A DNA stretch of 64,000 nucleotides from contig JAAOYA010000005.1 in assembly GCA_018221105.1 (NCBI GenBank), positions 1-64,000 of the forward strand. The letters are read 5' to 3'. This document shows positions 39,947 through 63,782 of this stretch, piece after piece (within the stretch, counting starts at the first letter, position 1; each line of letters starts with the position of its first letter). The notes under the pieces are model-generated. The model searched no databases and was not told the DNA's origin. It worked only from the letters and a program-made list of their open reading frames with translations. Made by a program: the position numbers and the translations under genes. The DNA is from Candidatus Woesearchaeota archaeon. Its GTDB lineage: Archaea; Nanobdellota; Nanobdellia; Woesearchaeales; JAAOYA01.

Positions 39947-40303
39947 TTCAAGCGGAAAACCTACGGAGAAGCCTGGAAAACCCGAAATTCTATAGTTTTT
40001 TGGCTTGTTATGGTTTTCGTACGCGTAAATATTGTTGTTACTATAAAGTAACGAAATAGTAGAAAGTTTTATATATTAGCGTACTTTCACCGTCATAAAC
40101 ACATTACGCGCATTCGATAACACCCACGAGAACATTAAGAGCTAAAAAGCCCGCTCTCAAAGGCTATTCGAACAAAACCTTACAAAAAACAGTCAAATCC
40201 CAAAAGATTGATTGAAATTAAGGCCTGGAAAACGTGAAATAACAACAAACTAACTCACGAAATTAACTAGTACAAACTATGTTCTACAAAAAAGGAGGTT
40301 TTC
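39947..40303 (+). promoter_or_regulatory. Island module 1 promoter and long leader
   Basis: A 357-base gap without a gene. It contains GGAAAACCCGAAA (39975-39987) and GGAAAACGTGAAA (40227-40239), an inverted repeat GTTACT-ATAA-AGTAAC (40037-40052) and a TATA box TTTTATATATTA (40067-40078). Transcription from the TATA would give a leader of about 200 bases before the first ORF at 40304. The same 12-base TATA starts module 2. Confidence 0.55.
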
Positions 40304-40435
40304 ATGCAAGGGATGATTTTCTTCAGTTTCTTCGCAGCTATAGGATTGATCTTTATTTCTATAGCAATTCTCTGTCTTGTGCGCTCTACTATCAAAAGTC
40401 TTTTTCAGCTAGCCAAAAGAGTGCTGACAACATAA
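40304..40435 (+). CDS. 43-residue single-helix membrane peptide
   Basis: ATG eight bases after AAAAGGAGG. One hydrophobic helix (residues 4-27), then a short basic tail. First gene of island module 1. Unknown function. Confidence 0.65.
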   Translation: MQGMIFFSFFAAIGLIFISIAILCLVRSTIKSLFQLAKRVLTT

Positions 40436-40482
40436 AACAAGAACTGTTGTGACGAATCACAACAACAAAAAAGGAGGAAGTA

Positions 40483-40935
40483 ATGAAAAAGTTTATTATA
40501 CTACTCGCTCTTGCTTTTATGTCTGCCGTAATAATGGCAACGTACTACAACGCGTGGAATATCTGGGCAAAAATAGTATGGTCCAGACCACTACCTTCAA
40601 CTTTATTCGCTCGAGCACAACTGGCTTTTGTAATTATTTCAATTGCCGCCATCATCATCGGAATGTTCCCAGTATTTTTTAAGATGGGGACTAGCAAAAA
40701 AGCCAATACTAAACAATTGCTCGGCACCATCTGCACCATAGGTTTTATGATCGTTTGGTTTATTGGAACGTTTCACTGCATTTTTCAAGTCTTAGACTGG
40801 GCTGTGCTGGGCAAGAAAATAACCAGCCCTTACGAATTATTTATTGCTGAAGCAATGTTTACCGGCGTGTTAATCGCGATAATTAGTGTTACATTTCGTG
40901 ATTCGTTTAAGCATTTGCGTTCAACAGCACAGTAA
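40483..40935 (+). CDS. Four-helix membrane protein, unknown
   Basis: A 150-residue protein with hydrophobic segments at about 4-22, 47-68, 80-102 and 120-138 and a His/Arg tail. AAAAAGGAGG lies just before the ATG. No family recognised. Confidence 0.65.
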   Translation: MKKFIILLALAFMSAVIMATYYNAWNIWAKIVWSRPLPSTLFARAQLAFVIISIAAIIIGMFPVFFKMGTSKKANTKQLLGTICTIGFMIVWFIGTFHCIFQVLDWAVLGKKITSPYELFIAEAMFTGVLIAIISVTFRDSFKHLRSTAQ

Positions 40936-40984
40936 AAAAATGCAGTTGTGCTAGACACAAAAAGAAAAATAAAGGAGGTTTAAC

Positions 40985-41332
40985 ATGTTAAATGATACTA
41001 TCGTTTGCTCCATCATCATATCAACCATAATGTTCATCGGTCCTGTGCGCTGGTGGCAACACTACGTCAACGCCGGCAAAGGCCAGAAGCTATTTCAACA
41101 TGTCTTCAACTTCGCGCTATGGATTGGCATCTTTGCACTGCTGACCTACCAAGTCTGGCTGGATTACAACAACAACGCTATTGTAAACGATTCTCTCACT
41201 CACTGGCTTCTCATAATCGTTATTCCAATGCTGACCAGCTTTATAGGCAATGCCTTCTGGTATTGGATTATCAATTACACAAAGATTGGCCAGGACTCAG
41301 TGCCAAGATCGCGTCCGATAAACTGCCAATAA
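40985..41332 (+). CDS. Three-helix membrane protein, unknown
   Basis: A 115-residue protein with three hydrophobic segments (about 4-20, 37-54, 72-95). AAAGGAGG seven bases before ATG. Overlapping frames here are shadows. Confidence 0.6.
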   Translation: MLNDTIVCSIIISTIMFIGPVRWWQHYVNAGKGQKLFQHVFNFALWIGIFALLTYQVWLDYNNNAIVNDSLTHWLLIIVIPMLTSFIGNAFWYWIINYTKIGQDSVPRSRPINCQ

Positions 41333-41337
41333 ACATA

Positions 41338-41402
41338 TTCGGCTTTTCGAACAACTCCCAATCCGTTACTTCTTTCAGGTTGGGAGGATTCGACAAGTCG
41401 AA
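41338..41402 (+). ncRNA. Intercistronic hairpin
   Basis: Stacked stems TTCGGCTT/AAGTCGAA, TCGAA/TTCGA and CTCCCAA/TTGGGAG around an 18-base loop, between two ORFs. Probably a processing or stability element of the mRNA. Confidence 0.5.
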
Positions 41403-41430
41403 AATAAAACTTATTTCAAGGAGGTTTATT

Positions 41431-41964
41431 ATGAGACCAAGATTGTTTGAAGTAACACTGGTAATGCTTACAATGCTAATCCTGCTTGGTATTGTCTCGT
41501 ATAAGGTCTTCGAGTTCGAAAACTACCAAGCTATCGAAGTCCTCGAGCAAAAAACCAAGATAATATCGGCACAGGCAAGCTTTTCCAAGTACGATAAGAA
41601 CCTTAAAGTCTATGAAGATATTGTCTTTGGGCTACTTAATGATTATAACAAAGACCTCAAAGATGACGCTGTAAAAGTCGCCTGGTGGACTGAAAAGCTT
41701 GAAGGTCTTGAGACAAGCCTGGTAGAGCTTGACAGTAGAAAGATATTGTTTGAGCGCAATCACCCTGACTATCAGACTTTACTACCGGAGTATGCCAAAA
41801 GGACAACAGAGCTTTTCATTGCTTTAGAAAGACTAGTGGTTATCGAACTTGAAGGGCGAAAAGTTCTCCCACCTGGTTTTTTTGAGTCAAAACTTTCTCG
41901 TGAGATTGCTTGGTCTTATCAATTTATTACTGATTACACAATGATGCTTCAAGAAAAAAGTTAA
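41431..41964 (+). CDS. Membrane-anchored helical protein, unknown
   Basis: A 177-residue protein from the ATG at 41431, which follows AAGGAGG. One transmembrane helix (8-26), then an entirely helical soluble part with heptad-like spacing. The frame is open much further upstream, but that part is a shadow of the previous gene and of the hairpin. Confidence 0.65.
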   Translation: MRPRLFEVTLVMLTMLILLGIVSYKVFEFENYQAIEVLEQKTKIISAQASFSKYDKNLKVYEDIVFGLLNDYNKDLKDDAVKVAWWTEKLEGLETSLVELDSRKILFERNHPDYQTLLPEYAKRTTELFIALERLVVIELEGRKVLPPGFFESKLSREIAWSYQFITDYTMMLQEKS

Positions 41965-41996
41965 CAAGTCTTCGCCCAAAAATAAAGGAGAATATC

Positions 41997-42392
41997 ATGA
42001 AAACTTTGTGGATTTTCACTTTCTTTTCTTTAATTGCCGCTATCATCATCTCGATTTGCTCGTTTTACGTTTCTGTTAAATTACAAGAAACTGTTGGCGA
42101 GCTAGCCGATAAAAACAAGGCCGAGCAGGAACATATAATTCTCGGTTTAGCTCAGCTAGTTTTAATACTTGGACTGTTCATCTTAGGAATTTATTTTTCA
42201 GTAAAGCTTGGCAGTTTCAAGTACGTAACAATAACCTTGGGTCTTATTGCAGCATCACAAATACCTTCAGCATCACACGAAGATGATCAAGAAGCAGAAC
42301 AATCGTTGCAACCCTCAAGGCGAAGCAACAAGTTACATACTGTAATATATGCTGCAATGGGTTTTTTTGGCGCTGCAGTATTGCTGCCCTAA
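41997..42392 (+). CDS. Small membrane protein, unknown
   Basis: A 131-residue protein: hydrophobic helices at 4-27, 48-68, 76-86 (weak) and 112-130, with a charged loop (HEDDQEAEQSLQPSRRSN) in between. AAAGGAG before ATG. Confidence 0.6.
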   Translation: MKTLWIFTFFSLIAAIIISICSFYVSVKLQETVGELADKNKAEQEHIILGLAQLVLILGLFILGIYFSVKLGSFKYVTITLGLIAASQIPSASHEDDQEAEQSLQPSRRSNKLHTVIYAAMGFFGAAVLLP

Positions 42393-42420
42393 CTCTTTAC
42401 AATAACAAAGGAGGAGAATT

Positions 42421-42756
42421 ATGGAACAATTACTTATAGGTTTTTTCGCGCTCATCGGTATCTGTACTGTTTTCTGGGCTGGTTATCAGCTGATAAAGCT
42501 CGCAGTTGAGAGCTCTTTCAAGGCCAAAAAAGATCACAAGCTCAGCTTCGCTCTATACCTGGGCGGAACAGTCCTTACAGGTCTGGGTATGTTGAGCGTG
42601 CCATTGCTTGAGGTTGTCGGCTTTGGTCCGAAAAGCTTCACTCCTGCTGAAGAATTACTCCCGGGAGCTGCTTTTTTCACTCTCATAGCTGTTGGTTTAA
42701 TGAGGATATTTCTTTCTGATCACTTCAAAAAGCAGGCCAAAGAAGCCACTTCTTAA
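42421..42756 (+). CDS. Three-helix membrane protein, unknown
   Basis: A 111-residue protein with hydrophobic segments at about 4-28, 43-65 and 82-98, basic ends. AAAGGAGG before the ATG. The following 160 bases hold a structured RNA. Confidence 0.6.
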   Translation: MEQLLIGFFALIGICTVFWAGYQLIKLAVESSFKAKKDHKLSFALYLGGTVLTGLGMLSVPLLEVVGFGPKSFTPAEELLPGAAFFTLIAVGLMRIFLSDHFKKQAKEATS

Positions 42757-42767
42757 CTGTTGAACCT

Positions 42768-42873
42768 AAGAGACCAACTGGGTTGGTCTCTTGCGAGCTC
42801 TCGGTCATTGACTGGCAGCGGTAACCCTTTCTCCCCTCCTTAAAAGTCCTGCTGGGTGATTGATTGCTCGCAA
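42768..42873 (+). ncRNA. Structured intercistronic RNA
   Basis: A perfect 11-bp hairpin AAGAGACCAAC-TGG-GTTGGTCTCTT (42768-42792) abuts TTGCGAGC (42791-42798), which pairs with GCTCGCAA (42866-42873). No ORF. Either a terminator/leader structure or a small RNA. Confidence 0.5.
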
Positions 42874-42918
42874 AAGATCAATCCAACGAACAATATAATA
42901 TTAAAAGGAGATTCAACA

Positions 42919-43200
42919 ATGAAACAAATTACTGATTCACAATGGACAAGTATAGCGGAGCAGCACTCTGATACCATTACCAAAATCGAAAAAGCAGTAA
43001 TTGGAGAATTGGACTGTTCTGTTGTTGTAACAAAGCAAGATGTAGGTCTCAAGTACTTGAAACTTATCATGAAATCTGCCGATCCTCCCGTGCAAGTTGT
43101 GTTACTGTATCATCTTTGCAAGGCATTTCATGATAATCCTTGCCAGCACGTTATCGAAGAAAAAGTTTTAGAAGCCTCAAGTGGAGCGTCGCACCATTAA
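42919..43200 (+). CDS. Small soluble helical protein, unknown
   Basis: A 93-residue protein without membrane segments (ITDSQWTSIAEQHSDTITK, CSVVVTKQDVGLKYLKLI, ending GASHH). Starts at the ATG nine bases after AAAAGGAG. The longer open frame starts in the structured RNA and is unlikely. Confidence 0.6.
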   Translation: MKQITDSQWTSIAEQHSDTITKIEKAVIGELDCSVVVTKQDVGLKYLKLIMKSADPPVQVVLLYHLCKAFHDNPCQHVIEEKVLEASSGASHH

Positions 43201-43231
43201 ATAAAACTTTTTAGGAAAAGGAGGTTTTGTT

Positions 43232-43843
43232 ATGGCTATTGCTTTTAGTTTGTTGTTCATCATGGTGTTGTTTTTTATCAGCACTGAAGTTTTCAGACAG
43301 TTAAAGAACGTGAAATCTCCTGGCAAGTCCTTTATTTTTCTTACTTGTTATATTACCATTTGGACTTTTGTTGCTTGGTTTTCAATAACACTTTTTTACA
43401 CTGTCACAATCAATGATTTATACAATCTTTTTGTTGGCGCGTGGTTGATGTTTATCTGTGCTTCTACAATAGTATTTTTTGCTGATATAACTCTCAACCG
43501 AGAACTTTCAATTTTCACATTTACAATACAATTACCCGGTTTTGCAGCGTCAATTTTTGCTGGAATCATGGCTTTTTTGTTTATTGATTGGGGTTGGTCG
43601 TTAGCGAAAAATTATGAACAAGTAAAAGCCGACCCTATACTATCAAAATTGACAACAGTTGTTTTGGCTGTTGTGGCAATTCTTTTTTGGCTTTCTATAG
43701 ATAGAAGTTTGTCGAAAAAGTTTGACAAGTCTTTTGCCAAAAAAGATGTGTTTTCTGGCGATAGAATTATTATCAAAAAGGTTGTTTTCAAGCGCAACCT
43801 TGCAATCATAGTAATAACGTGTTTTCTGGCATTCATTCTATAA
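43232..43843 (+). CDS. Polytopic membrane protein, unknown
   Basis: A 203-residue protein with about six hydrophobic segments and a basic loop (SLSKKFDKSFAKKDVF) before the last. AAAAGGAGG before ATG. No family recognised. Confidence 0.65.
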   Translation: MAIAFSLLFIMVLFFISTEVFRQLKNVKSPGKSFIFLTCYITIWTFVAWFSITLFYTVTINDLYNLFVGAWLMFICASTIVFFADITLNRELSIFTFTIQLPGFAASIFAGIMAFLFIDWGWSLAKNYEQVKADPILSKLTTVVLAVVAILFWLSIDRSLSKKFDKSFAKKDVFSGDRIIIKKVVFKRNLAIIVITCFLAFIL

Positions 43844-43863
43844 TTAAAAGGAGGTGTGTTGTT

Positions 43864-44499
43864 ATGGCAAAAAAACAGTATGTTTGGCTTGTGTGTAATG
43901 AGTGCGGCAATAAAAAGGGTGGTCGTGCGACGGCCTACCAGCAACATGAACAAGGTTACCTTGATACGCACTGCAACAAATGTCACAAGAGTACCCGCCA
44001 CGATATCCATAGTAGGCGACACGAAGCAGCGCAAAGAAGTAAGACTTTAATATCTGCGCTAGCAATAGTGATGCTTACGGTGCTAATCCTTCCTTCAATA
44101 ACCTTTGCTACAGGTCCACAACTCGCCATTATTGTTGATGATCAAGTATTTTATGACCAGCAAGAAATGCTTGTTGATCCTCTTGACAAGTATGACATCA
44201 AAGTCACAATTGGCGACCTCCCAATCTTCGTTGTTTTCGAGCCTGGGCTTTTTGAAGAAGACATCGATGATTATGCAACTACAGTTTACGAACGTTCCAA
44301 GAGCAAGCGCTTAAAAAATGGCGGCGTACTGCTAGTTTTTAGCGATCACGATGTCGTTGGCGTTCAAGGTAATAAAGTCACTGTTCAAGTTCGCCAGCAA
44401 GTAAACAAAAAAGCTCTCGACCATCTCTTAGTAGACATTTATGTGTTGGCAGTCTGGGACGTCATCGACGTCTTGAAAATCATGCTCTTTGAAGAATAA
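43864..44499 (+). CDS. Zinc-ribbon protein with one membrane helix
   Basis: A 211-residue protein. N-terminal zinc ribbon VCNECGNKKGG plus HCNKCHKSTRH (C-x2-C, 23-base-pair-scale loop, C-x2-C), resembling ribosomal L44/L33-type ribbons. A transmembrane helix at about 62-82 is followed by an external alpha/beta domain of 125 residues. The ATG at 43864 follows AAAAGGAGG; upstream open frame ignored. Confidence 0.65.
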   Translation: MAKKQYVWLVCNECGNKKGGRATAYQQHEQGYLDTHCNKCHKSTRHDIHSRRHEAAQRSKTLISALAIVMLTVLILPSITFATGPQLAIIVDDQVFYDQQEMLVDPLDKYDIKVTIGDLPIFVVFEPGLFEEDIDDYATTVYERSKSKRLKNGGVLLVFSDHDVVGVQGNKVTVQVRQQVNKKALDHLLVDIYVLAVWDVIDVLKIMLFEE

Positions 44500-44519
44500 A
44501 AAAAGGAGGTGATACTATA

Positions 44520-45005
44520 ATGAATTCAGAATCTACTATTGAATTGTTCGAGGGTTTTTTGCGGGGTCCTGATTTAGGTTTTGGTGTTCGCGAGTGCCTG
44601 GCTTTTATTTTAAAAGCTGATCACTCACAATGGGTGTCGCTCGTGAATGATTTTTTTATGGTTTACTATGTTAATGGTTTGGTAGCGCCACAAAGTTTCG
44701 AGTCCGACAACGAGATTGCATGGACAGTTATTGATTCTTTTGCTGATAACAGTCCTTCGTTGGAATCTCACACTGAAATGGTTGTTGACTTTCTCAAAGC
44801 TTTAGAGTCGTTTAATGGCTCTTTTGAGGAACAACTATCATTTCTTAAGGCTTTGCTGGCTTCAAAACGCATTAGTATGACTTTCGAGCAGTCTGTTAGC
44901 AGCGCCTTAGAAACAACTGTCGCGCTAACAATTTTTGAGGCGATAACTAACGCCTTCAACTCTGAAGAAGAAACAGAAGACGACACACCAATCGTTATCC
45001 ACTAG
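44520..45005 (+). CDS. Soluble acidic helical protein, unknown
   Basis: A 161-residue all-helical protein with an acidic tail (NSEEETEDDTPIVIH). Perfect AAAGGAGGTGAT ribosome site, fully complementary to the usual 16S 3' end. Unknown function. Confidence 0.6.
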   Translation: MNSESTIELFEGFLRGPDLGFGVRECLAFILKADHSQWVSLVNDFFMVYYVNGLVAPQSFESDNEIAWTVIDSFADNSPSLESHTEMVVDFLKALESFNGSFEEQLSFLKALLASKRISMTFEQSVSSALETTVALTIFEAITNAFNSEEETEDDTPIVIH

Positions 45006-45068
45006 TAAAATCGGTTGTACAAGATTTTGAAAGCTTAAACCTTAACAAAGAATGCGGAGGGTGAGAAA

Positions 45069-46220
45069 ATGAAAAGGTTAATGATTGTGATACTAGCAGC
45101 GTTCGTTCTGATTATCACTGGTTGTGGTGGTAGTTCTAGTCAGTCAAAGATTGACGAGGTTCCTATGGTTCCAGTGACTAGCGAGTTTTTCGCGCAGGTT
45201 AATTCTGCTTCAAAGACCCTTTATGGTCACATTGACAGCTTGCTGGTTAACGGCTCTGTTGTTGACGAGGAATTCGAGTATTTGGTTGTCAACTGGGATC
45301 CTGAATACTCCAAAATCGAGTCTTTTGTTCTGGAGTTTTGGGGCTCTGACAATTCACTGACTGCCGCCGGGCCTAACGGTGAAGTCGTGAGTCTGGTACT
45401 TGAAGAACACCGTTACGCTGATGGCTGGGTTGGAGAACTCATCTTTGATGATGGTGAAGTCCTTACAACTTATGTTGTCAGGCTTTTAGAGCCAGATATG
45501 TTCACTAATCTAGTCATGCTCAACGATCCTTTCACTGGTTATGACTGGGACGGCCCTGGTAATTGGGATCATGAGTCAGAACACGTGAGCTTTTACGTGA
45601 GCACCAGCCAGTACACTGACAATCCCTACGATGTTGCTGTTGGAGCGCACTGGGGGCAGTGGGTTGACAGTAACAACTCTGAAGATTATGTGGTGCACTT
45701 TTTCGGCCAGGACATCAGTGTTTATGATACAAGTATCATCGTAACTGGTGAAATGATCAAAGGTCACTCTGTAAAACAACCTGTTAGTAGTAGTACAGAA
45801 CCTGTTACGCTGTCAAGTGGTCAGACTGGCTGGTTTAGCAATGACTACGATTTTTACGTTAAGTACGAAGAAGATGGTTGGCTGCGCTTTGACGGCGACT
45901 ACTATGTCTGGCCTGTTGCTGGAATGCCGCCAATACCAACGTATAACGGCACGCTTTCAATCACTGCCGTTGATATTGATGCTGGCACTGTCACTTTCAC
46001 TTACGAGCAAGAAGGCGGCTTTGTTATTGAGGACCCTCACAGTTATTACGGTTTCGAGTTGGTCATCAGCGAACCACCAAGTCCCGGCAATTGTTATCAG
46101 TCAACGCTCACAGTCTACGACACTACAGGCCCTGAAACCATTACCTTGCCCATTTGTCCAACTCCACAAGCAAGCGCAGGTGGCGGTGGAAGCTCAGGCG
46201 GGGGCGGGGGAGGATCATAA
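45069..46220 (+). CDS. Predicted lipoprotein with Gly-rich C-terminus
   Basis: A 383-residue exported protein. Signal with lipobox LIITGC (Cys at about 19), then a beta-rich ectodomain in which Trp, Tyr and Asp are frequent (DWDGPGNWDHESEHVSFY), and a C-terminal Gly/Ser run (AGGGGSSGGGGGGS). It is the largest exported protein of the island and a candidate surface or virion spike, though nothing in the sequence proves that. GCGGAGGGTG precedes the ATG. Confidence 0.7.
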   Translation: MKRLMIVILAAFVLIITGCGGSSSQSKIDEVPMVPVTSEFFAQVNSASKTLYGHIDSLLVNGSVVDEEFEYLVVNWDPEYSKIESFVLEFWGSDNSLTAAGPNGEVVSLVLEEHRYADGWVGELIFDDGEVLTTYVVRLLEPDMFTNLVMLNDPFTGYDWDGPGNWDHESEHVSFYVSTSQYTDNPYDVAVGAHWGQWVDSNNSEDYVVHFFGQDISVYDTSIIVTGEMIKGHSVKQPVSSSTEPVTLSSGQTGWFSNDYDFYVKYEEDGWLRFDGDYYVWPVAGMPPIPTYNGTLSITAVDIDAGTVTFTYEQEGGFVIEDPHSYYGFELVISEPPSPGNCYQSTLTVYDTTGPETITLPICPTPQASAGGGGSSGGGGGGS

Positions 46221-46271
46221 CAGATAAAAAAATGTTGTCTTTTTTAAGGTGAAGAAATTAACATTGAACTA

Positions 46272-46312
46272 TTCGGTGTCACTCAACATTACTGGTGTAG
46301 TGTGACATCGAA
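46272..46312 (+). ncRNA. Intercistronic hairpin
   Basis: TTCGGTGTCAC (46272-46282) pairs with GTGACATCGAA (46302-46312), an 11-bp stem followed by CTTTTTCTTT. May be a terminator or processing site between the lipoprotein and the next gene. Confidence 0.5.
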
Positions 46313-46334
46313 CTTTTTCTTTAAGGAGTCAATC

Positions 46335-55228: not shown

Positions 55229-55243
55229 GGGAGGTATTATATT

Positions 55244-56276: not shown

Positions 56277-56340
56277 AAGAAGCTTTGTATGTTTGGCTTC
56301 TTTTTTCGTTTTTTGTTTTCTATATTGAAAATAAAAACAT
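56277..56340 (+). terminator. Module 1 terminator, repeated at 63702
   Basis: AAGAAGC (56277-56283) pairs with GCTTCTT (56296-56302), then a T-run. The hairpin plus TTTCTATATTGAAAATAA tail is nearly identical to 63702-63771. Confidence 0.65.
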
Positions 56341-56428
56341 TCAAAAATCGGTTTTTGTGCGGAAGAAGTTGGAATACCATGAAAAAACATCGAATCGGTT
56401 TATTACTGTTTGGTTGTAAACGCGTTAG

Positions 56429-56440
56429 TTTTATATATTA
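56429..56440 (+). promoter_or_regulatory. Island module 2 TATA box
   Basis: TTTTATATATTA, the same 12 bases as at 40067-40078, about 40 bases before the ATG at 56482. Confidence 0.6.
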
Positions 56441-56481
56441 TAAGCTCTTACTAATAACAAAACACTAGAGGTAATAGCAAA

Positions 56482-56841: not shown

Positions 56842-56846
56842 GCACG

Positions 56847-58793
56847 ATGCAATCAAGCCTAACAGTCGAAGAACTATGTCGAAAACTAAAACCTGTTTTT
56901 GGCGACAAAATAGACAAGTTATACCTAAAGTATTCTTTAAGCGTTGATCGTGAAGAGCGCACAGAAATAGAACAAGCATTAAACGCGTTATATCACAAGC
57001 ACATCAACGAAGAGATGATAACAGAAAAAGTACTTCTTGAACCCCCTTCTAAGGACATCAGTGACGGCCAATACCCTTTAGGCGTCATTCATTACGCCAA
57101 AAAAAACTTGTACCCCTTTTATCTGCGAGAAAAAGATTGGGTTCGACACGTTTGCGTCAGTGGAATGAGCGGCAGTGGAAAAACAACATTCGCCTATAAT
57201 GTGTTAGGGGCTTTCGTGCTAAAAAAGAAACCATTCATAGTTTTCGATTGGAAAAAAAGTTTTAGGCCACTACTAAAAACAAATGAAAAAATGCTATTTT
57301 TTACTGTAGGCAACGAACGAGTAACAAATTTTTTCAAACTAAACATTAACAAACCACCAACAGGTGTTGGACCAAAAGAATGGATAGGAATACTTTGTGA
57401 CATCATCAACGAAAGCTACTTTGCAAACTTTGGAGTTCATAAGATATTATCAGAAACACTCGATCAAGCATTCACAGATTTTGGAATATACAAAGGCAGT
57501 GAAAACTATCCAACATGGCTACAAATAAAAGATCGCTTAGAAGAAAAAGCCAACAACACAAAAGGCCGGCCAAACCGTGAAAACGAATGGTTAGCTTCGG
57601 CGTTAAGGATAGCTCATTCACTAACTTTTGGCGCTTTTGGCGAGAGCACAAGCTACAAAGGAAAAGATTTGATAGGTGTTGAAGACCTACTAACAAATCA
57701 AGTAGTCTTCGAACTAGACTCGCTCTCAACTAGTGAGAAAAAATTCTTTTGTGAATTCATTCTAACTTATATTTACAAAGCAAAAAAAAGCAATCCAAAA
57801 GCACTAACAAACACTTTTGAAAGCGCTATAATAGTAGACGAAGCACACAACATATTCTTAAAAGAAAGACCATCATTTCTAACAGAAACAATCACAGACA
57901 TGATCTATCGAGAACTACGAGAGTACGGCATAGGACTCATTTGTTTAGACCAACACATAAGCAAACTATCAGAAGTCGTCGCTGGAAACAGCGCTTGCAA
58001 CATAGCATTTCAGCAAATGCTACCACAAGACATAGAAACAGTCAGTGGCATAATGCAATTAAAAGATCACAAAAAATACTTTTCAATGCTGCCAGTAGGA
58101 ACAGCAATAGTAAAACTAGCAGAGCGTTATTACAGACCATTCTTAATCAAAGTACCGTTCATCGACATCAAAAAAAACAGATATTCGGACGAAGAACTAG
58201 AAAGTTTAATGAGCGAGCGAATGAAATTTGCTCGCAGAATGGTATTATTTGATCAAAGTGTAAAACCAGAAAAACTAGTAGAAAACACGAAAAAATTAGA
58301 CGGAATACTAAAAAGTCAAGGCATCAAACCAACAAACGAATTCTTAGAGACAGAAAGCAACACAATGCTAGCACAACAAAGCATAACACAAAAACCACTC
58401 ACTTTTGAACTAGGTAATGACATGATAGGAAAAATAGTCGACAAAATAAGCCAAAATCCCATCAAAACAACACCAAAAGAACCAATAAGTGACGAATTAG
58501 AACTAGAAAATGATAACGTTTATAAATATCCTATCGACAATAGTATACTTACAAATAAAATATCAATAGAAGAAGAACTCTTCCTCTCAACCCTACAAGG
58601 TGAGACCGAAGGTCTTCCAACGACACTACTATACCAAAAACTAAACAGTCTATCAACACGCAAAGCCAACACGATAAAGAAAAAACTTATCGAACAAGGC
58701 AAGGTAGAAGAAGTGGTCGAAAAAACCGCGAGCGGTTGGAAGAAAAAACTTTCACTAACCGAAATCGGAGTACAAATTCTAGAAAAACAATAG
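56847..58793 (+). CDS. HerA/VirB4-like P-loop ATPase (DUF87 type)
   Basis: A 648-residue ATPase of the HerA/FtsK/VirB4 superfamily. N-terminal helical part, Walker A GMSGSGKT at 106-113, IVFDWKKSFRPLL as the second strand, Walker B AIIVDEAHNIF at about 328-338, sensor region YGIGLICLDQHISKLSE, and a C-terminal winged helix (LSTRKANTIKKKLIEQGKVE) after a disordered linker. Such ATPases move DNA or drive conjugation/packaging. It is the only island protein with a clear family. No strong ribosome site; host-like codon use, so its history may differ from its neighbours. Confidence 0.88.
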   Translation: MQSSLTVEELCRKLKPVFGDKIDKLYLKYSLSVDREERTEIEQALNALYHKHINEEMITEKVLLEPPSKDISDGQYPLGVIHYAKKNLYPFYLREKDWVRHVCVSGMSGSGKTTFAYNVLGAFVLKKKPFIVFDWKKSFRPLLKTNEKMLFFTVGNERVTNFFKLNINKPPTGVGPKEWIGILCDIINESYFANFGVHKILSETLDQAFTDFGIYKGSENYPTWLQIKDRLEEKANNTKGRPNRENEWLASALRIAHSLTFGAFGESTSYKGKDLIGVEDLLTNQVVFELDSLSTSEKKFFCEFILTYIYKAKKSNPKALTNTFESAIIVDEAHNIFLKERPSFLTETITDMIYRELREYGIGLICLDQHISKLSEVVAGNSACNIAFQQMLPQDIETVSGIMQLKDHKKYFSMLPVGTAIVKLAERYYRPFLIKVPFIDIKKNRYSDEELESLMSERMKFARRMVLFDQSVKPEKLVENTKKLDGILKSQGIKPTNEFLETESNTMLAQQSITQKPLTFELGNDMIGKIVDKISQNPIKTTPKEPISDELELENDNVYKYPIDNSILTNKISIEEELFLSTLQGETEGLPTTLLYQKLNSLSTRKANTIKKKLIEQGKVEEVVEKTASGWKKKLSLTEIGVQILEKQ

Positions 58794-58867
58794 AACGCGC
58801 AAATTAAAAACATGCGGAAAACCTTGGAAAACGCTGAAAAACCCAAAATTTGTTTTTGGAGGCAGTT

Positions 58868-59026
58868 ATGAAAAAAGAAGTGAAACAAATAAAATTCACC
58901 AAAGTATCACTAGAAGAAGCAAACAGGCGACTATCAGAATCAGCACAAAAAATGGCCGAAGCGCGAGAGCACAGCGAAAAAATAAATCGATTAACACCAG
59001 AAGACCTCGAAAAAATCTATTATTAA
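58868..59026 (+). CDS. 52-residue charged helical peptide
   Basis: ATG seven bases after GGAGG. Highly charged coiled-coil-like peptide ending IYY. The gap before it holds GCGGAAAACC and GGAAAACGCTGAAAA (58815-58840). Confidence 0.55.
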   Translation: MKKEVKQIKFTKVSLEEANRRLSESAQKMAEAREHSEKINRLTPEDLEKIYY

Positions 59027-59082
59027 TCAAATGTGAAAAGGAGCCTTCACTTTTTTTCACCAAAACAAAAAGGAGGGAGGAA

Positions 59083-59160
59083 ATGACAAAGCGGGGAATC
59101 GTTGTTTTTGCTATGTTTGCCAGCTTCTATTTTTTTTATCTAGGCCCTATATTTAATTAA
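59083..59160 (+). CDS. 25-residue single-helix membrane peptide
   Basis: AAGGAGGGAGG precedes the ATG. One helix from residue 5 to the end with a Phe/Tyr-rich face. Confidence 0.5.
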   Translation: MTKRGIVVFAMFASFYFFYLGPIFN

Positions 59161-59177
59161 GAAATAAGGAGAGGGTG

Positions 59178-59291
59178 ATGGCAGATCCGAATTCTGTAAC
59201 ATGGATTTTTCCAACAGTCTTTTCATACGGCGCTTACATTTTAATCATGATAACTATGGGAGGTAAAAACAAAAAAGACGGAGGTGAGTGA
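59178..59291 (+). CDS. 37-residue single-helix membrane peptide
   Basis: AAGGAGAGGGTG precedes the ATG. One helix (8-28) then a basic tail GGKNKKDGGE, whose codons contain the next ribosome site; stop overlaps the next ATG (TGATG). Confidence 0.55.
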   Translation: MADPNSVTWIFPTVFSYGAYILIMITMGGKNKKDGGE

Positions 59292-59446
59292 TGGGGGACA
59301 TGAGCTTTGAAATGAACGCATTAAAAAAAGCAGTAAGCAACTGGGACTTTCTTAAGTACATTGAGTGCACAGCGTTCATCATATTACTACTCGTAGCAAT
59401 CTACATCCTAAGCCGGAGCTTTAAAAAAACCCCTTCAGCAAAATAA
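59291..59446 (+). CDS. 51-residue single-helix membrane peptide
   Basis: Starts at the ATG of a TGATG overlap, after GGAGGTGAGTG. Soluble N-terminus then helix at about 26-43. Confidence 0.55.
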   Translation: MGDMSFEMNALKKAVSNWDFLKYIECTAFIILLLVAIYILSRSFKKTPSAK

Positions 59447-59450
59447 CAAT

Positions 59451-59541
59451 AGCGCGATGACTAAAACTTTTTTGTGAGCTGTCGGACCAAAAACAAACAC
59501 TTAAGTTTTGTGGTCGCTCCAAACTAGTAAAAGTCAGCGCT
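59451..59541 (+). ncRNA. Structured RNA domain
   Basis: AGCGC-GA-TGACT (59451-59462) pairs with AGTCA-GCGCT (59532-59541). Inside, GAGC...GACCAAAAAC pairs with GTTTTGTGGTC...GCTC. It begins right after the last small ORF of this run. Confidence 0.55.
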
Positions 59542-59612
59542 TAGAAATAGTACTGCCAGTACAACATGGTCTTTTTCACAACATCTTGTTAAAACAGTAG
59601 TACCTCCTTTTA

Positions 59613-59707
59613 GGGGCTCATAACATTGGGTTGTGAGCTCCGCTTACAAATAAGAGCTTTTCAAGCTCTTCAAAATACAAACCTTGCATGCGGGATAGTC
59701 CTGCAAG
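59613..59707 (+). ncRNA. Three hairpins before the ORF at 59732
   Basis: GGGGCTCATAAC/GTTGTGAGCTCC (59613-59641, 12 bp), AAGAGCTT-TTC-AAGCTCTT (59652-59670) and CTTGCA/TGCAAG (59683-59707). Possible leader or processing elements. Confidence 0.5.
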
Positions 59708-59731
59708 CAACAACAGAGAAAGGAGTGTTCA

Positions 59732-59935
59732 ATGGCGGACAATAGAGAGGCTATGACTACTGATACTGGCGGGGGGAACGGAAAAAGAATCAAGGATCGT
59801 CCCCATATGCGTCCACGCCACGACCCTGTATTTCAACAGCAGGCAAGAGTGTGCATCGATGGCGCCGGCCAAGTGCTCGGTCATAGTCTTTCACCAGACC
59901 AGCTCACGAGAGCTAAAAGGAGGATAGAATATTGA
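59732..59935 (+). CDS. 67-residue basic soluble protein
   Basis: Gly/Arg/Asp-rich peptide (GGGNGKRIKDRPHMRPRHDP) without hydrophobic core. GAAAGGAG before ATG. Stop overlaps the next TTG start. Confidence 0.5.
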   Translation: MADNREAMTTDTGGGNGKRIKDRPHMRPRHDPVFQQQARVCIDGAGQVLGHSLSPDQLTRAKRRIEY

Positions 59936-60003
59936 AAAAATTCTACATTATCATGTTGGCAATGGTGCCTGCGATGGCGGCGTTCGCCACCGTCCTGCTC
60001 TGA
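59932..60003 (+). CDS. 23-residue signal-peptide-like peptide
   Basis: TTG start after AAAGGAGG, KKFYIIMLAMVPAMAAFATV. It resembles the signal sequence of the exported protein at 60889, as if the mature part had been lost. Confidence 0.4.
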   Translation: MKKFYIIMLAMVPAMAAFATVLL

Positions 60004-60134
60004 GGATATTCGACGTGTTTTTTGCAGGATTTACCTAGCTACCTAAAAAATTATGGACTAACCCTACCAAAACCGGATAAACCCGGCAAATCTCGCCAGA
60101 AACGAGATGGAACGAAGTACTGTTCAACTAAAAG
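60004..60134 (+). ncRNA. Hairpin-rich gap
   Basis: No ORF with a ribosome site. ATCTCG-CCAGAAA-CGAGAT (about 60091-60109) and TCAACT-AAA-AGTTGA (about 60123-60137) are perfect hairpins. Likely part of the structured RNA tract. Confidence 0.35.
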
Positions 60135-60368
60135 TTGACTTTGGCCAGTCAAAACAAAAAATTAGCCAGTGACAGTCCTAGCCCTAAAGCAGTCACTAAA
60201 AAAAGGGTCGGTCCTTCAAAGCACCTAAACGCCGGGACAATAGCGAGTAGTTCAAAGCGGACGCTCGTGTCTGGTGTGTTGGACCGTGAAAGCACGGCGC
60301 AAGAAAGAACAGAGAAACAACTCCTTAACATGAGACAAGGAGGAAACAAATGGACAAGACACTCGTGA
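60135..60368 (+). CDS. Doubtful Ser/Lys-rich ORF
   Basis: A 77-codon frame starting at TTG without a ribosome site; composition is Ser/Thr/Lys-rich and it runs through the next gene's ribosome site. Possibly not expressed. Confidence 0.2.
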   Translation: MTLASQNKKLASDSPSPKAVTKKRVGPSKHLNAGTIASSSKRTLVSGVLDRESTAQERTEKQLLNMRQGGNKWTRHS

Positions 60369-60475
60369 TGGCCTGCCGCGGCAGTCCTGTCTCCAACGCC
60401 AGTTCAAGGATGAAGATGCGGCGCCATGACGCCATTGCCCAGGCAAACAATGCCGAGAAGGGGCAGCGCCAGTGA
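60350..60475 (+). CDS. 41-residue basic peptide
   Basis: ATG after AAGGAGG. MDKTLVMACRGSPVSNASSR onward, rich in Arg and Ala, no hydrophobic helix. GC-rich codons. Confidence 0.45.
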   Translation: MDKTLVMACRGSPVSNASSRMKMRRHDAIAQANNAEKGQRQ

Positions 60476-60888
60476 TCAATTCGACGTGAAAACCCGGAGG
60501 ATTTTTCAAATGGTCTCCTGTTTAAACGGGCTCTAAACCCGTAAAAGAGTACAGTATTAGAAGATCTCCGAAGCGGCCTGCAATCCAAAAAGGTCAAACA
60601 AGGACTAAACATTTGAAAGGGGGAATGAGGTGCGAAGAATTCTACTACTCCACATGCCTAACGCAGATATCCTAGGCCTTGCATGAAAGATGTCAGCGCT
60701 TTCCGCTGCAAAGAGTAGACACCAACTCACTAGGAGAGATTGCCTTGAACAACAAGACCTCTCCTATTACCTAAACCATAACCCACAACATCAAGGAAAA
60801 ATACACCAAAGAAAAAAAGGCTCTACTTTTCTCAACCTTGCCCCAGTAACTGTTTTTTTCTGGGCTAAAGAGAAAGGAGGTAATGGAC
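60476..60888 (+). ncRNA. 413-base hairpin-rich gap with tiny ORFs
   Basis: Contains hairpins ACGGG-CTCTAAA-CCCGT (about 60525-60541), CAGCG-CTTTC-CGCTG (about 60693-60707) and AGGAGAG/CTCTCCT (60731-60764). A GGAGG-led 8-codon ORF (MVSCLNGL, 60510-60536) lies directly against the first hairpin, like a leader peptide. No convincing larger gene. Confidence 0.4.
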
Positions 60889-61347
60889 ATGAAAAAGTTG
60901 TCCATTATCTTGTTGGCGCTTGCCCTCGCACTTGTGATGACGATACCCGCGATGGCAGCCATGACCCAGGACATGATCAGAGGTCCGACTGCCAGTGGCA
61001 CGGCCCTCCTGACCGCGCAAGAAGCCCTCGACATCGGAATGAGCGCGGAGATCTCCCGCGATATGATCGCACCCTCATATGAAGCCATTAATCCGCTCGT
61101 CAAAGAAGTGGTACTGGCTGAAGAGGAAATCCTCGACACCGGACGAATCCAAGCAACCTTGGAGGTGTTGTCGCCTGTTACCGAAGTGTTTTTCGCCTCT
61201 GGTTCCGACGTCATCGCCATTGACGGCCTCCTTTACGGCGCTCTACCCCAAGCAACCTCGGAGGTGTTGCCGGCCTGTACTCTTGCAGTGAACACCCTTC
61301 GTAATGTCATGGCAGGCACCGCCGAGATGGCCTTTGACACCTCCTAA
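60889..61347 (+). CDS. Exported protein with signal peptide
   Basis: A 152-residue protein with a Sec signal (KKLSIILLALALALVMTIPA, cleavage near AMA-AM). The mature part is Ala/Glu/Ile-rich with a partial internal repeat (QATLEVLSPVTEV and QATSEVLPACTLAV). AAAGGAGG before ATG at 60889. Ends before a strong intrinsic-type terminator. Confidence 0.6.
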   Translation: MKKLSIILLALALALVMTIPAMAAMTQDMIRGPTASGTALLTAQEALDIGMSAEISRDMIAPSYEAINPLVKEVVLAEEEILDTGRIQATLEVLSPVTEVFFASGSDVIAIDGLLYGALPQATSEVLPACTLAVNTLRNVMAGTAEMAFDTS

Positions 61348-61389
61348 AGGAAGATCATCCTGGAGTGTTGAAAAGGCACTGTAACACTT

Positions 61390-61442
61390 AAGGGCGCTCC
61401 TAATAACTACCAGAAATGGAGTGTTGGGAGCGCCCTTTTTTT
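61390..61442 (+). terminator. Strong hairpin/T-run terminator
   Basis: AAGGGCGCTCC (61390-61400) pairs with GGAGCGCCCTT (61427-61437) and runs into TTTTTTT. Looks like a bacterial Rho-independent terminator; a 26-base loop is unusually large. Confidence 0.65.
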
Positions 61443-61495
61443 AGGAGGTGATACTACCCAAAAAAACTAATTCTGCAGAGAGGAGGTGAAAAACA

Positions 61496-61681
61496 ATGGG
61501 TAAAAGAGAAGACATGGGCGGATATGTCCAGTACAATAATCCCATAGATGGAACCACTCGCCAGTATCCAAAAGATGAAGCAGGCAATACCAATGAGTCC
61601 ACAAGTCAGACAATTCATCACGAAAGCGGTAATGTAACAGACTCTCGTGGCGACATCGTCGGCAATGTTAAGGACAAATAA
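61496..61681 (+). CDS. 61-residue polar protein
   Basis: Gly/Asp/Asn-rich, no hydrophobic segment (GGYVQYNNPIDGTTRQYPKD). GAGAGGAGGTGA before ATG. Unknown. Confidence 0.5.
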   Translation: MGKREDMGGYVQYNNPIDGTTRQYPKDEAGNTNESTSQTIHHESGNVTDSRGDIVGNVKDK

Positions 61682-61789
61682 AATAATTATTTTTTTGTTT
61701 TTGGAAAAACTTTGAACTCTTAATTAATTGTGAAATTAAAAATTAGCACGGCTTTTTTGTGCTTTAAATATTGTAAAAACTACTTTTGA

Positions 61790-62220
61790 CGCGTCTCAAA
61801 ACTTTTTGGGATGCTTCTTTTTTTCTTGTGTTGCTTTCTAACACTCTTTGTGAGCTTGGTGCGATGAGAGTTGCGGGCTCTTGTTAAAGGTTCAACTCCT
61901 TACAAGCAAAAAGTGTTTTGAAAGGGGCTTTTCCTCCTTAAGTTGTTGATAGGAAAAGTTCGGTTGCGACCACTCCGGGTTGAGGGTGTCGGGAAAGCCT
62001 TGCTTTTCATGATTCCTCCAAGGCAGGGCTCTCCCTTCACCCAACACAAAATAAGTTATGGGTGCTGTGCGGAATCTAATATAATGTGAAAGGGTTTCCG
62101 TTAGTTTGCAGAGGACTGGAGACGGCCTCTTAAAAAAATAATATGTTGTGAAATTCTTTCCTGGGCTTAGCCTGTCAGGTCTGCATCCTGACCTGAGACT
62201 GTTCCGTACAGCACCTGTTT
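61790..62220 (+). ncRNA. Large structured RNA, left part
   Basis: No convincing protein gene. Contains tRNA-like element 1 (61854-61907) inside an AACACT/AGTGTT helix (61840-61917), hairpin CTTTTCCT/AGGAAAAG (61928-61958), GCCTTG/CAAGGC (61997-62024), and a 14-bp helix GGTGCTGTGCGGAA/TTCCGTACAGCACC (62061-62215) enclosing AGAGG/CCTCT and GTCAGG/CCTGAC hairpins. Confidence 0.65.
61854..61907 (+). ncRNA. tRNA-like element 1 without normal D arm
   Basis: GCTTG (61854-61858) pairs with CAAGC (61903-61907). After GCGAT comes an anticodon-like arm GAGAG-TTGCGGG-CTCTT (61866-61882, loop triplet GCG after T33), then a T-arm-like AAGG-TTCAACT-CCTT (61887-61901). The D arm is missing. Its GCTTGGTGC head is shared with element 2 at 62744. 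Whether it is charged or used is unknown. Confidence 0.5.
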
Positions 62221-62700
62221 ATACCCTTTGACCGATCAGACCACCTGAACCTCGCGGGCCCTCTACAAGGGAGAAAAGAGGATAAGTCTTGGTGGATCGA
62301 AGAGTCTGATAGGGAACAATAATCTTATGAGGTGGCTGGCAGTTAAAAGATCTTAGCAATTCGTTCTTCTCGCACCCGCCAACCAACCAGTTGGCTTGCG
62401 AAATAAAGCGCTGCAATCGCCTGCCATAAGGTGATAACCGAGCCATATTAAACTGTGACTTCCCAACAGAAAAAAGGCCTTTATGCCCTTCTTCTGGAGC
62501 CTTCGAAACATAGGGGGTTATCTGGGGATGACAGTCTTGTGGGAAGTAACATAAAAATAAAAAAAAGGCGCTCGGTCTTGACAGCCCAACGCGTTGCCAA
62601 AGAACTATACTAACTCGCCAGTCACCTCTCCAATTACCCCCAGCAGCACCCCCAGACCCGGAGCATAAAGCAAAGTGCATTGTGCTCCGGGTCAACACTT
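62221..62700 (+). ncRNA. Large structured RNA, middle part
   Basis: Nested ATCAGACCACC with GGTGG...GTCTGAT near 62232-62321, hairpin CCAAC-CAACCA-GTTGG, and two crossing helices GATAACC/GGTTATC (about 62432-62522) and ACTTCCCA/TGGGAAGT (about 62458-62546) that would form a pseudoknot. The segment ends with a 14-bp hairpin GACCCGGAGCATAA/TTGTGCTCCGGGTC (62655-62693). A 159-codon minus-strand frame exists but looks like a shadow. Confidence 0.6.
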
Positions 62701-62736
62701 GCTTTTGAGAGCTTTCGGGCCAGCAGAAAAAAAAGT

Positions 62737-62804
62737 TTTTGGTGCTTGGTGCTATAAGAGGTTCATACCCTCTTACTAATAGGGTTCGAATCCCTTACCA
62801 AAGC
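62737..62804 (+). ncRNA. tRNA-like element 2 with CAT anticodon loop and tiny D region
   Basis: Acceptor TTTTGGT (62737-62743) with ACCAAAG (62797-62803), or GCTTGGT (62744-62750) with ACCAAAGC plus a bulge. Anticodon arm AAGAGG-TTCATAC-CCTCTT (62756-62774) with T33 and triplet CAT. T arm TAGGG-TTCGAAT-CCCTT (62780-62796) with a canonical loop. Only 13 bases (GCTTGGTGCTATA) replace the D arm. Not a standard tRNA. Confidence 0.6.
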
Positions 62805-63026
62805 TTTAGCTAGCAAGGAGGCTGCTTCTTCCACCATCTCTCCTAGCTGGCACCCTTGTGGATGGCCAAAGGCTCTTAAGAGAAAGGGTGATTTCTCAGT
62901 TCTCAAGAAAAAGGAGTCCTTGACCTCTCCTATTCTGCTTGAGATCTTGAGAAGTCTCTCCTGGTCCAGCGCTGACACCTCGGAATTTTTCTGCCGATTT
63001 CTTCGCCGGGGTGTCAGCGCGTTTTT
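62805..63026 (+). ncRNA. Structured RNA with terminator-like end
   Basis: AGCTAG/TAGCT, CACCCTT/AAGGGTG and TTCTCAAG/CTTGAGAA helices lead to a 15-bp hairpin GCGCTGACACCTCGG (62969-62983) with CCGGGGTGTCAGCGC (63006-63020), followed by GTTTTTC. Probably one RNA unit ending in a terminator. Confidence 0.6.
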
Positions 63027-63094
63027 CTAGCCATTACTTGCTATGTTTTTGGCCCCCAACAAAAGCGTTGCAAGTTTTTGGTAGTGGTTTATTT

Positions 63095-63149
63095 GCGGGC
63101 TTACAGGCACACCCCCTTACCAAGCGGCCACCCGTGCCTGTAAGCTCGC
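63095..63149 (+). ncRNA. 16-bp hairpin
   Basis: GCGGGCTTACAGGCAC (63095-63110) pairs with GTGCCTGTAAGCTCGC (63134-63149); A-rich and T-rich runs follow. Confidence 0.55.
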
Positions 63150-63229
63150 ACCTTAAAAAAAAGTTTTTTTTATGCAATTTTGAAAGAGTGGCCATCCCGT
63201 CATACGGGTTTTGTGTCTTAACATTCTCC

Positions 63230-63480
63230 TTCTTGTGAGGCGAAGCTGTCACTAGTCCCTTCTTCCGATCTTTTGACTGGTGAACGGTTAAAAGACACAC
63301 CCTCCTGTTATTGGGAACTCGAGGTCTACACCTTCCTTTGTGGCGGGGTGGCCGCTCATTCGATTAAAGGTGTGGTGGTGTCGCCAGAGAAAAAAAGCAG
63401 AAAGGAACTCGCTGCCTCTCTGTTGGAATGACGTCGCTGGCGGTACCACCGCTCGTTTGAGAAAAATCGCTGAAAACAAA
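63230..63480 (+). ncRNA. Structured RNA before the last island gene
   Basis: ACACCTT/AAAGGTGT (about 63327-63373) and a 14-bp helix GGTGGTGTCGCCAG (63374-63387) with CTGGCGGTACCACC (63437-63450) enclosing a GCAG/CTGC hairpin. Could be the leader of the gene at 63497 or the end of the large RNA. Confidence 0.5.
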
Positions 63481-63496
63481 AAAAGGAGGAAAACTA

Positions 63497-63703
63497 ATGG
63501 GTCATCATGATACAGATTGTGACAGTCCAAGGTTTCGAAGTGACCCTAGCATTTATGCTGGTGCTGGTGGTCTAAATCGCGATACTATAAAAACGTTCTA
63601 TGATCGCTGTACAGATTGTGGAGCTAAAACTGAGTTTAAAGTTAGTTGGGGCGATCTTAACACCTTTGAGCGGCTTTGTGTGAACTGTCGTGAAAAAAAA
63701 TAA
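63497..63703 (+). CDS. Small zinc-ribbon protein
   Basis: A 68-residue protein with CTDCGAKTEF and LCVNCREKK, a probable zinc ribbon of the CxxC-x(n)-CxxC type. AAAAAAGGAGG before ATG. Last gene of the island. Confidence 0.6.
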   Translation: MGHHDTDCDSPRFRSDPSIYAGAGGLNRDTIKTFYDRCTDCGAKTEFKVSWGDLNTFERLCVNCREKK

Positions 63704-63771
63704 GAAGCCTTTTGTATTTTGGCTTCTTTTTTTCACTATTTCTTTTCTATATTGAAAATAATTACTTGAAA
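63702..63771 (+). terminator. Module 2 terminator, repeat of 56277
   Basis: AAGAAGCC (63702-63709) pairs with GGCTTCTT (63721-63728), then a T-run and TTTCTATATTGAAAATAA, as at 56277-56340. The hairpin begins at the stop codon of the zinc-ribbon gene. Confidence 0.65.
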
Positions 63772-63782
63772 AAAAAGGTTTT

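Follow-up and report, generated by a model that had tools for sequence, protein, structure and literature searches.

We have found that a 24-kb island in the chromosome of a woesearchaeote is an insertion, and that it represents a recurring and apparently undescribed class of islands in Woesearchaeota and related Nanoarchaeota (DPANN). The reading we tentatively favour, to which we give a probability of roughly 0.4, is that the island is an exchangeable chromosomal unit made up of a fixed DNA motor and an interchangeable polycistronic cargo. The island occupies positions 39947 to 63782, on the forward strand, of the window (the whole 64,000-nucleotide stretch of DNA that was analysed), as judged from an empty site in relatives and from the density of Shine-Dalgarno (SD) sites. 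Its limits are exact, running from the stop codon of the DUF424 gene (39946) to that of the gene for DP2 of PolD (63783). In 15 of 29 relatives DP2 directly faces DUF424, the two genes being adjacent and convergent, and in 7 of these 15 the gap between them is at most 10 bp; in 8 further relatives of the 29, aIF2-beta adjoins DP2. A first-pass annotation of this DNA had proposed a search of related genomes for an empty site, and these adjacent genes provide it. That annotation had also stated that the island interrupts the core genes DUF424 and PolD; comparison with relatives shows that a conserved convergent pair has indeed been broken, but neither ORF is cut, since the island sits between them. 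The host is a tiny, symbiont-type archaeon with a genome of 1.15 Mb.

The genes of the island begin differently from those of the host. Pattern searches of the genome for AAAGGAGG-N3-9-ATG returned 19 sites, 15 of which lie on the forward strand within the 23.8 kb between 39947 and 63782; 3 fall in the rest of the genome, and 1, a chance match, on the minus strand of the island. Taken alone, AAAGGAGG has 24 occurrences in the window, where shuffled sequence would give 1.5, and 19 of the 20 on the forward strand of the island are followed by a start codon. When the first ATG of each ORF is used, such that starts are chosen without regard to the SD, an SD is present in 25 of 32 island ORFs versus 3 of 30 host ORFs. 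The earlier suggestion that the island has a translation grammar unlike that of the host is thus upheld. The 3' tail of the host 16S rRNA (...GGATCACCTCCTTTTTTTTT) pairs with AAAGGAGG, and such a site is therefore usable by the host itself. Composition differs too, GC3 being 0.41-0.46 in the runs of the island versus 0.28 in host genes.

The island appears to comprise two transcription units. Unit 1 would start from a TATA-like promoter, AGTTTTATATATTA, at 40064-40078 (forward strand), and the same motif is repeated 5' of a coiled-coil gene at 56429-56443 (forward strand), where it would serve unit 2. Each unit ends, as far as the sequence indicates, in a terminator-like hairpin and tail on the forward strand, copy 1 (56277-56356) closing unit 1 and copy 2 (63704-63783) closing both unit 2 and the island; the 73-nt tails with their GAAGC...GGCTTCTTTTTT hairpin (56284-56356 and 63711-63783) are 77% alike. 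The description of two modules with a common TATA and terminator is therefore accurate. A leader motif, GCGGAAAACC..GGAAAAC, is found at 58812-58850 (forward strand), with further copies at 39953 and 49273. Hairpin/T-run terminators had likewise been put forward as part of the grammar of the island, and this we could not substantiate: there are 21 between 39947 and 56300 versus 15.9 +/- 4.1 in shuffles, and 18 versus 14.4 +/- 4.6 in host DNA, neither of which is an enrichment. The excess of sigma-70-like promoters in the island is no greater than that in the host. Bacterial promoters and terminators were accordingly rejected as an island grammar, there being no enrichment over shuffles and none in the cargo gaps of relatives. 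Promoters of either type show no enrichment inside the runs of relatives, and we therefore read the runs as operon tails.

Unit 1 (40304-56264) holds about 37 small SD-led ORFs, mostly encoding membrane, secreted or Cys-rich proteins, with no relatives at other loci. Among its products are a 211-aa protein (43864-44499) with a zinc-ribbon-like N-terminus, one transmembrane segment (TM) and a TPM-like domain that falls barely under the Pfam cut-off, a 383-aa protein (45069-46220) whose translation has a lipobox (LIITGC), a Gly-rich tail and weak lipoprotein-type matches, and a 438-aa protein with a Cys cluster (46335-47651) that has no relative in 287 genomes of the order. The cargo of unit 2 (58868-61681) consists of small SD-led ORFs, including one for a secreted 152-aa protein (60889-61347), and is followed by a 1.8-kb stretch with strong hairpins and no convincing ORFs (61682-63496) and by the final gene of the unit, which encodes a 68-aa Cys-rich protein (63497-63703); all of these features are on the forward strand. 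A D-arm-less tRNA-Met-like element (62737-62804) lies inside the ORF-poor stretch. Folding of 61690-63490 beats shuffles only locally, and the idea of a large ornate non-coding RNA there was dropped, only chance-level pieces of it being present in the 287 genomes. Relatives of the cargo genes of the window are absent from all other loci, and in the case of the largest gene from the order as a whole (287 genomes).

Between the second promoter and the cargo of unit 2 lies a conserved module (56482-58793, forward strand) that encodes a 119-aa coiled-coil protein (56482-56841), conserved in the order, and a 648-aa ATPase (56847-58793) that has both Walker motifs, A and B, and, at its C-terminus, a winged helix. 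The first-pass annotation had considered the island's products to be without families, which is wrong for the ATPase: it scores above the cut-off for Pfam DUF87 (HerA), and both it and its partner are found across the order and class. The ATPase is a member of the FtsK-HerA superfamily with a RecA-type DNA-pump fold. Its motor fold is nearest to those of DndH-C, HerA and VirB4, its family matches to CedD, HerA and VirB4 are distant (3e-14 and 52 bits against a cut-off of 600 for the NCBIfam CedD model; 18 against a cut-off of 643 for VirB4_CagE), and the winged helix, which is seen in the structure model, has a weak match to the F-93 family. Among 31 ATPase sequences the Walker A motif GMSGSGKT and the DEAH motif are invariant or nearly so. 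Relatives of the ATPase were found at 34 loci in named genomes; it is present in 34 of the 287 genomes of the order (about 12%), patchily and mostly in single copy, and in 25 of 281 genomes in a class-wide draw that included other families. The coiled-coil partner accompanies it at 32 of the 34 loci. The GC3 of the pair is host-like, and between families the ATPase has diverged as much as a core gene does, a pattern that long vertical inheritance could also produce.

Downstream of the pair, co-directional AGGAG(G)-ATG sites occur at 0.80 per kb, as against 0.16 for the opposite strand and 0.27 for the upstream side (paired Wilcoxon p = 5e-5 for the excess, 26 loci). In all 15 of the 15 loci compared, GC3 is higher in the cargo than in the upstream genes, and a TM is predicted for 60% of cargo genes as against 26% of upstream genes. 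Within genera the motor and the upstream genes are held in common and the cargo almost never is, the run having changed; of 573 downstream ORFs, 38 have a relative at another locus, and none of these 38 comes from the window. In one congener (G140) the whole unit is absent between shared flanks. Comparison of sequences shows that the unit as a whole is gained or lost between conserved genes, and that within genera the pair persists while its operon is replaced. For cargo that different species have in common, pN is far below pS in most cases. Against the exchangeable-unit reading, some pair-bearing islands (G373, G385, G457 and L037) have few SD genes, and in G082 the run is positioned upstream of the pair. 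One suspected outer-membrane protein in a run (L024:17287-18066) gave a structure model with a pLDDT of 31, which is uninformative.

If the island is an exchangeable unit of motor and cargo, its archaeal promoters would give rise to long polycistronic messages, within which a strong SD paired with the host 16S tail would start each internal gene because leaderless starts are unavailable inside a message. The ATPase would then act as a ring-shaped pump of double-stranded DNA, which its winged helix might load onto its own locus. We infer that it may drive island DNA across the envelope by way of an apparatus to which the membrane proteins contribute, in a manner resembling conjugation or Ced-type DNA exchange. 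A transfer of this kind would account for the turnover of cargo. Against it, we could identify no relaxase, integrase, pilus or channel protein in the island of the window.

Several known systems resemble the island in part. Archaeal 'dark matter islands' bring together fast-evolving ORFans, with membrane and secreted proteins abundant among them, and one of their commonest recognisable families is a HerA-like ATPase, arCOG00280, annotated as a 'possible viral DNA pumping ATPase' (Makarova et al. 2014, PMC4158269). The island is like them in its ORFans, its membrane and secreted proteins and its HerA-like ATPase, and its grouping of rapidly evolving genes that belong to no known family brings it under their definition. 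A search of the text of PMC4158269 found mention of neither Nanoarchaeota nor Shine-Dalgarno, and the parts of the literature that we read contain no description of a conserved coiled-coil/ATPase pair as the fixed anchor of a co-directional, SD-led run. The archaeal Ced and Ted systems of DNA exchange also combine HerA/VirB4-type ATPases (CedB/CedD) with small membrane proteins (PMC9905601, PMC11868833). However, the island ATPase lies far under the CedD cut-off, no channel (CedA/VirB6) or pilin subunit was recognised among the many small TM proteins of the island, which have no family match, and descriptions of Ced treat its genes as belonging to the host, whereas the island is a block that has been inserted and carries cargo of its own. 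HerA itself, as found in HerA-NurA and in SIR2-HerA defence, shares superfamily and fold with the island ATPase, which differs in having no NurA or SIR2 partner, another N-terminal domain and an extra C-terminal winged helix. A defence system was considered and rejected, the PADLOC results (8 proteins) being HerA-type ATPase matches except for one weak CARF match (0.005). In FtsK a flexible linker connects the motor to a winged helix at the C-terminus, an architecture that the island ATPase shares, but the motor fold of the latter is nearest to HerA, DndH-C and VirB4 and it has no membrane domain.

It is also quite possible, if somewhat less likely in our view, that the island is instead a resident cell-surface locus, in which the pair would be host genes for secretion or regulation and the run would encode fast-evolving surface, secreted and conflict proteins, with no transfer of DNA. 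The fixed address of the pair within genera, the conservation of the upstream genes and the host-like GC3 of the pair are all consistent with this, as are the abundance of membrane, lipobox and prepilin-type proteins in the runs and the FHA, kinase-like and peptidase genes at some loci. Yet between conserved flanks the block may be there or missing, and it has a new insertion site in the window, the ATPase belongs to a superfamily of DNA pumps, and the composition of the run differs from that of the host in all testable loci.

Rather improbable, in our estimation, is that the run is captured bacterial DNA or an integron-like array of cassettes expressed from the promoter of the pair. Integrons, which are also known from archaea (PMC9668308), resemble the island in being co-directional, promoterless arrays of RBS-bearing ORFans beside a stable anchor, and both the foreign composition of the runs and the bacterial-type proteins in some of them, namely a TonB C-terminal domain (G200), MacA (G036), PEP-CTERM (L022) and prepilins, would be accounted for. 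But most of the genes have no recognisable relative, no integron integrase lies beside the array, and in the window the majority of gaps could not accommodate an attC site. Repeated inter-gene hairpins are found in few loci (L030, L028 and L021), do not fit the attC consensus and are absent from the window, which has no attC-like sites, and we rejected an integron as such.

The first-pass annotation had spoken of an undescribed mobile element or virus-like island. An inserted island with an empty site, of an apparently undescribed class, is what we find; the likeness to a virus is not borne out. A cryptic provirus or virus-derived element, in which the conserved gene would be a packaging ATPase and the small membrane proteins virion parts, could explain the insertion with its empty site, the long co-directional units of small ORFans and the membership of the ATPase in the packaging superfamily, with its match to a PHROG terminase (4e-12). 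We nevertheless consider it improbable. As had been noted at first pass, no replication, integration or capsid gene can be named: the island has no Pfam or PHROG match to an integrase or replication gene, and the same databases revealed no capsid, portal or replication family among 46 cargo proteins of the window and 118 of relatives. PF00589 (tyrosine recombinase) was found only on contigs C4 and C5, and no tyrosine recombinase on contig C10. Neither the ATPase (as a single protein or as a profile) nor the 438-aa and 383-aa proteins have a relative among 2.9 million viral contigs, and tblastn returned two weak phage records only. Moreover, the ATPase stays while the cargo turns over, and inheritance of the pair at a fixed address within genera is not what one would expect of a virus that moves freely. 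The runs are GC-richer than the host, whereas phages and plasmids tend to be richer in AT.

We give very little credence to the idea that the genes of the run are meant for expression in another cell, the pump delivering the neighbouring segment into a partner, possibly a diderm bacterium, whose ribosomes would translate it, much as with Agrobacterium T-DNA but from an archaeal donor. This would explain the strong SD sites, the shifted codon composition and the proteins of bacterial-envelope type (those listed above and beta-barrel-like secreted proteins) in hosts that have no outer membrane. However, the runs are not enriched in bacterial promoters and those of the window begin at archaeal TATA boxes, the beta-barrel call rests on sequence end motifs only, and neither a border nor a relaxase was found. 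An assembly chimera or contamination is scarcely credible: although the genomes appear to be drafts and the composition of the runs differs from that of the hosts, the same arrangement is seen again at about 40 independent loci, flanked on at least one side by conserved archaeal genes.

Most of what is known of DPANN archaea comes from their genomes, and at stake here are the ways in which they trade genes and associate with partner cells. The coiled-coil/ATPase pair provides a searchable marker with which such loci can be found and compared in hundreds of genomes, and SD density together with GC3 can expose cargo where strong SD sites are otherwise rare in the genome. That the island recurs makes it testable whether the motor moves DNA and whether the cargo differs from one population to the next.

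We find that the island at 39947-63782 ends exactly at the stop codon of DUF424 on one side and, on the other, at that of DP2, the minus-strand gene for the large subunit of PolD. The remaining genes of its 70,949-base contig, part of a 1.15-Mb genome, include aIF2-beta, DUF424, DP2, DP1 and Cdc6. The first-pass annotation had supposed a mobile or virus-like island interrupting core genes, and an empty site is indeed seen among 29 relatives of the same order, whose DP2 loci were compared together with 1.5 kb of flank: DUF424 faces DP2 in 15 of the 29, their stops lying 3 to 1044 bases apart (within 10 bases of each other in seven of the 15), the neighbouring aIF2-beta faces DP2 in eight more, and no comparable island was seen in these flanks. 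Judged by this comparison of gene order, the window island is an insertion.

The sole part of the island with relatives is a gene pair at 56482-58793, which encodes a 119-aa protein with a predicted coiled coil and a 648-aa FtsK-HerA-type ATPase. The ATPase passes the Pfam cut-off for DUF87 and, more distantly, matches models of CedD, HerA and VirB4 and a PHROG terminase family; comparison establishes that its motifs are intact, with Walker A and B kept in an alignment of 31 sequences. In its structure model (mean pLDDT 77) a helical part at the N-terminus precedes the motor, which a disordered linker (503-568) joins to a winged helix at the C-terminus, and the closest solved folds are DndH-C, HerA and VirB4. 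The view that island products lack families therefore fails for the ATPase; the 46 proteins of the window cargo have weak or marginal matches only. We note that the host has a HerA-like ATPase at 28976-30319 of the window, a distant paralogue of the island enzyme. On contig C4 a second FtsK-HerA-like ORF (603 aa) and a tyrosine recombinase, some 6 kb apart (G000:C4:103220-110173), possibly mark another integrated element.

The motif AAAGGAGG-N3-9-ATG occurs 15 times on the plus strand of the island and 3 times in the remaining 1.13 Mb of the genome, and under unbiased start choice a Shine-Dalgarno (SD) sequence precedes 25 of 32 island ORFs as against 3 of 30 host ORFs, so the island is, as had been proposed, SD-rich in a way its host is not. 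Comparison also shows the SD to be competent for pairing, as the motif can pair over its full length with the tail of the host 16S, CACCTCCTTTTTTTT. GC3 is 0.41-0.46 in the cargo and 0.28 in host genes. The two modules (cargo at 40304-56264 and 58868-61681) do have a common TATA and a common terminator, as first suggested; terminators as a grammar special to the island did not hold up, since neither they nor sigma-70-like promoters stand out. Three copies of a leader motif, GCGGAAAACC..GGAAAAC, lie near the starts of gene runs (39953, 49273 and 58814); the motif may act as an RNA element or serve as a binding site. The non-coding stretch of the island contains a tRNA-Met-like element (62737-62804) with perfect anticodon and T arms and no D arm, called by ARAGORN and not by Rfam, and three long near-perfect hairpins within 500 bases (62655-62693, 62968-63018 and 63094-63150), the second followed by TTTTT.

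Recurrence of the pair is established: it is carried by 34 named genomes of Woesearchaeota, Pacearchaeota and other Nanoarchaeota, by 34 of 287 genomes of the order and by 25 of 281 from a class-wide draw. We compared 41 independent loci, the window included, with up to 20 kb per side; draft assemblies are common among the relatives, and in some cases the contig stops within the run, the co-directional SD-led series of small genes beside the pair. With the window excluded, strong SD-ATG sites reach 0.80 per kb on the ATPase's own strand downstream of it and 0.16 on the opposite strand, compared with 0.27 (same strand) and 0.11 (other strand) upstream, an association with the downstream side that is supported by a paired test on the 26 loci with both flanks (Wilcoxon p = 5e-5). 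Run position varies, being upstream of the pair in one genome (G082) and on both sides in the window. Run genes are short (median 116 aa). Because SD-based gene calls in relatives favour SD-bearing genes, three further gene-level contrasts are partly conditioned on SD: a transmembrane segment is predicted for 60% of run genes and 26% of upstream genes; GC3, compared among genes near the locus, is higher in the run than upstream in 15 of 15 loci with enough genes, the ATPase usually resembling the upstream genes; and the aromatic C-terminal residue of several secreted run proteins, as in outer-membrane barrels, is in small excess (8/278 run, 5/340 host). The motif counts, genome-wide, at the loci and in the window, are free of this bias. 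A structure model gave no confirmation of the barrel reading. Among the relatives, one locus has ten copies of an inverted repeat of about 57 nt between the small genes of its run (L030:13341-20624) and another (L021) four copies of a different one; both resemble repeated terminators or recombination sites and are unlike the attC consensus.

Comparison also establishes turnover of the cargo. Congeners have upstream genes in common (12 of 12 between G399 and G386, for example), whereas they have in common 3 of 7 cargo genes in that pair and none at all in nearly all others. When the 573 downstream ORFs of all loci are compared, 38 have relatives at a different locus; ordinary host genes account for several of the 38, and the window contributes none. 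In the few cargo genes common to two species pN is well below pS, and at least these are therefore not junk. Within genus g37, one genome (G140) has the genes flanking the unit of another (G104) on both sides, with neither pair nor run. Taken with the sharing within genera, this means, as read from these gene comparisons, that the whole unit comes or goes as a block and that within a lineage the motor is kept and the cargo replaced. A secreted protein of 2282 aa encoded downstream of the G373 ATPase (L156:8184-15029) is highly divergent from that of a congener, G385, at 32-36% identity, with flanking genes at 78-93%.

Very few of the relatives' 118 cargo proteins have Pfam matches: four have prepilin-type N-termini, and FHA, C39 peptidase, ankyrin, T2SSE ATPase, PEP-CTERM and others occur once each. 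Some runs encode proteins typical of the bacterial envelope. One of them, SD-led and on an archaeal contig, includes a protein with a TonB C-terminal domain (7e-12; G200, L108:6842-7612); another, in a genome of the same order, has a MacA-type adaptor (5e-24) followed by MacB-like genes (G036, L103:5457-6716).

We suggest, with a probability of about 0.4 for the full chain, that the two TATA boxes would drive two long messages, that SD sites would serve internal initiation within them, as the absence of promoters within the runs would fit, that the ATPase may pump DNA, that the membrane proteins may form or serve an envelope apparatus, and that cargo exchange would result from transfer. The nearest alternative, a resident surface locus that transfers no DNA, appears to us somewhat less likely. 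Capture of cassettes is improbable and a provirus no less so, both being weakened because their defining features were sought and not found.

HerA-like ATPases have been noted in the archaeal dark matter islands of Makarova and co-workers (PMC4158269), and the window island fits that broad kind. The Ced system (PMC11868833) is its closest functional analogue; judged by its ATPase, the island falls outside Ced itself. We found no description of the pair-plus-run arrangement in the open-access papers searched. To the dark matter islands the present comparison adds an anchor pair that is specific and conserved, and beside it an operon that is co-directional, SD-led, shifted in composition and interchangeable, in part of the DPANN archaea.
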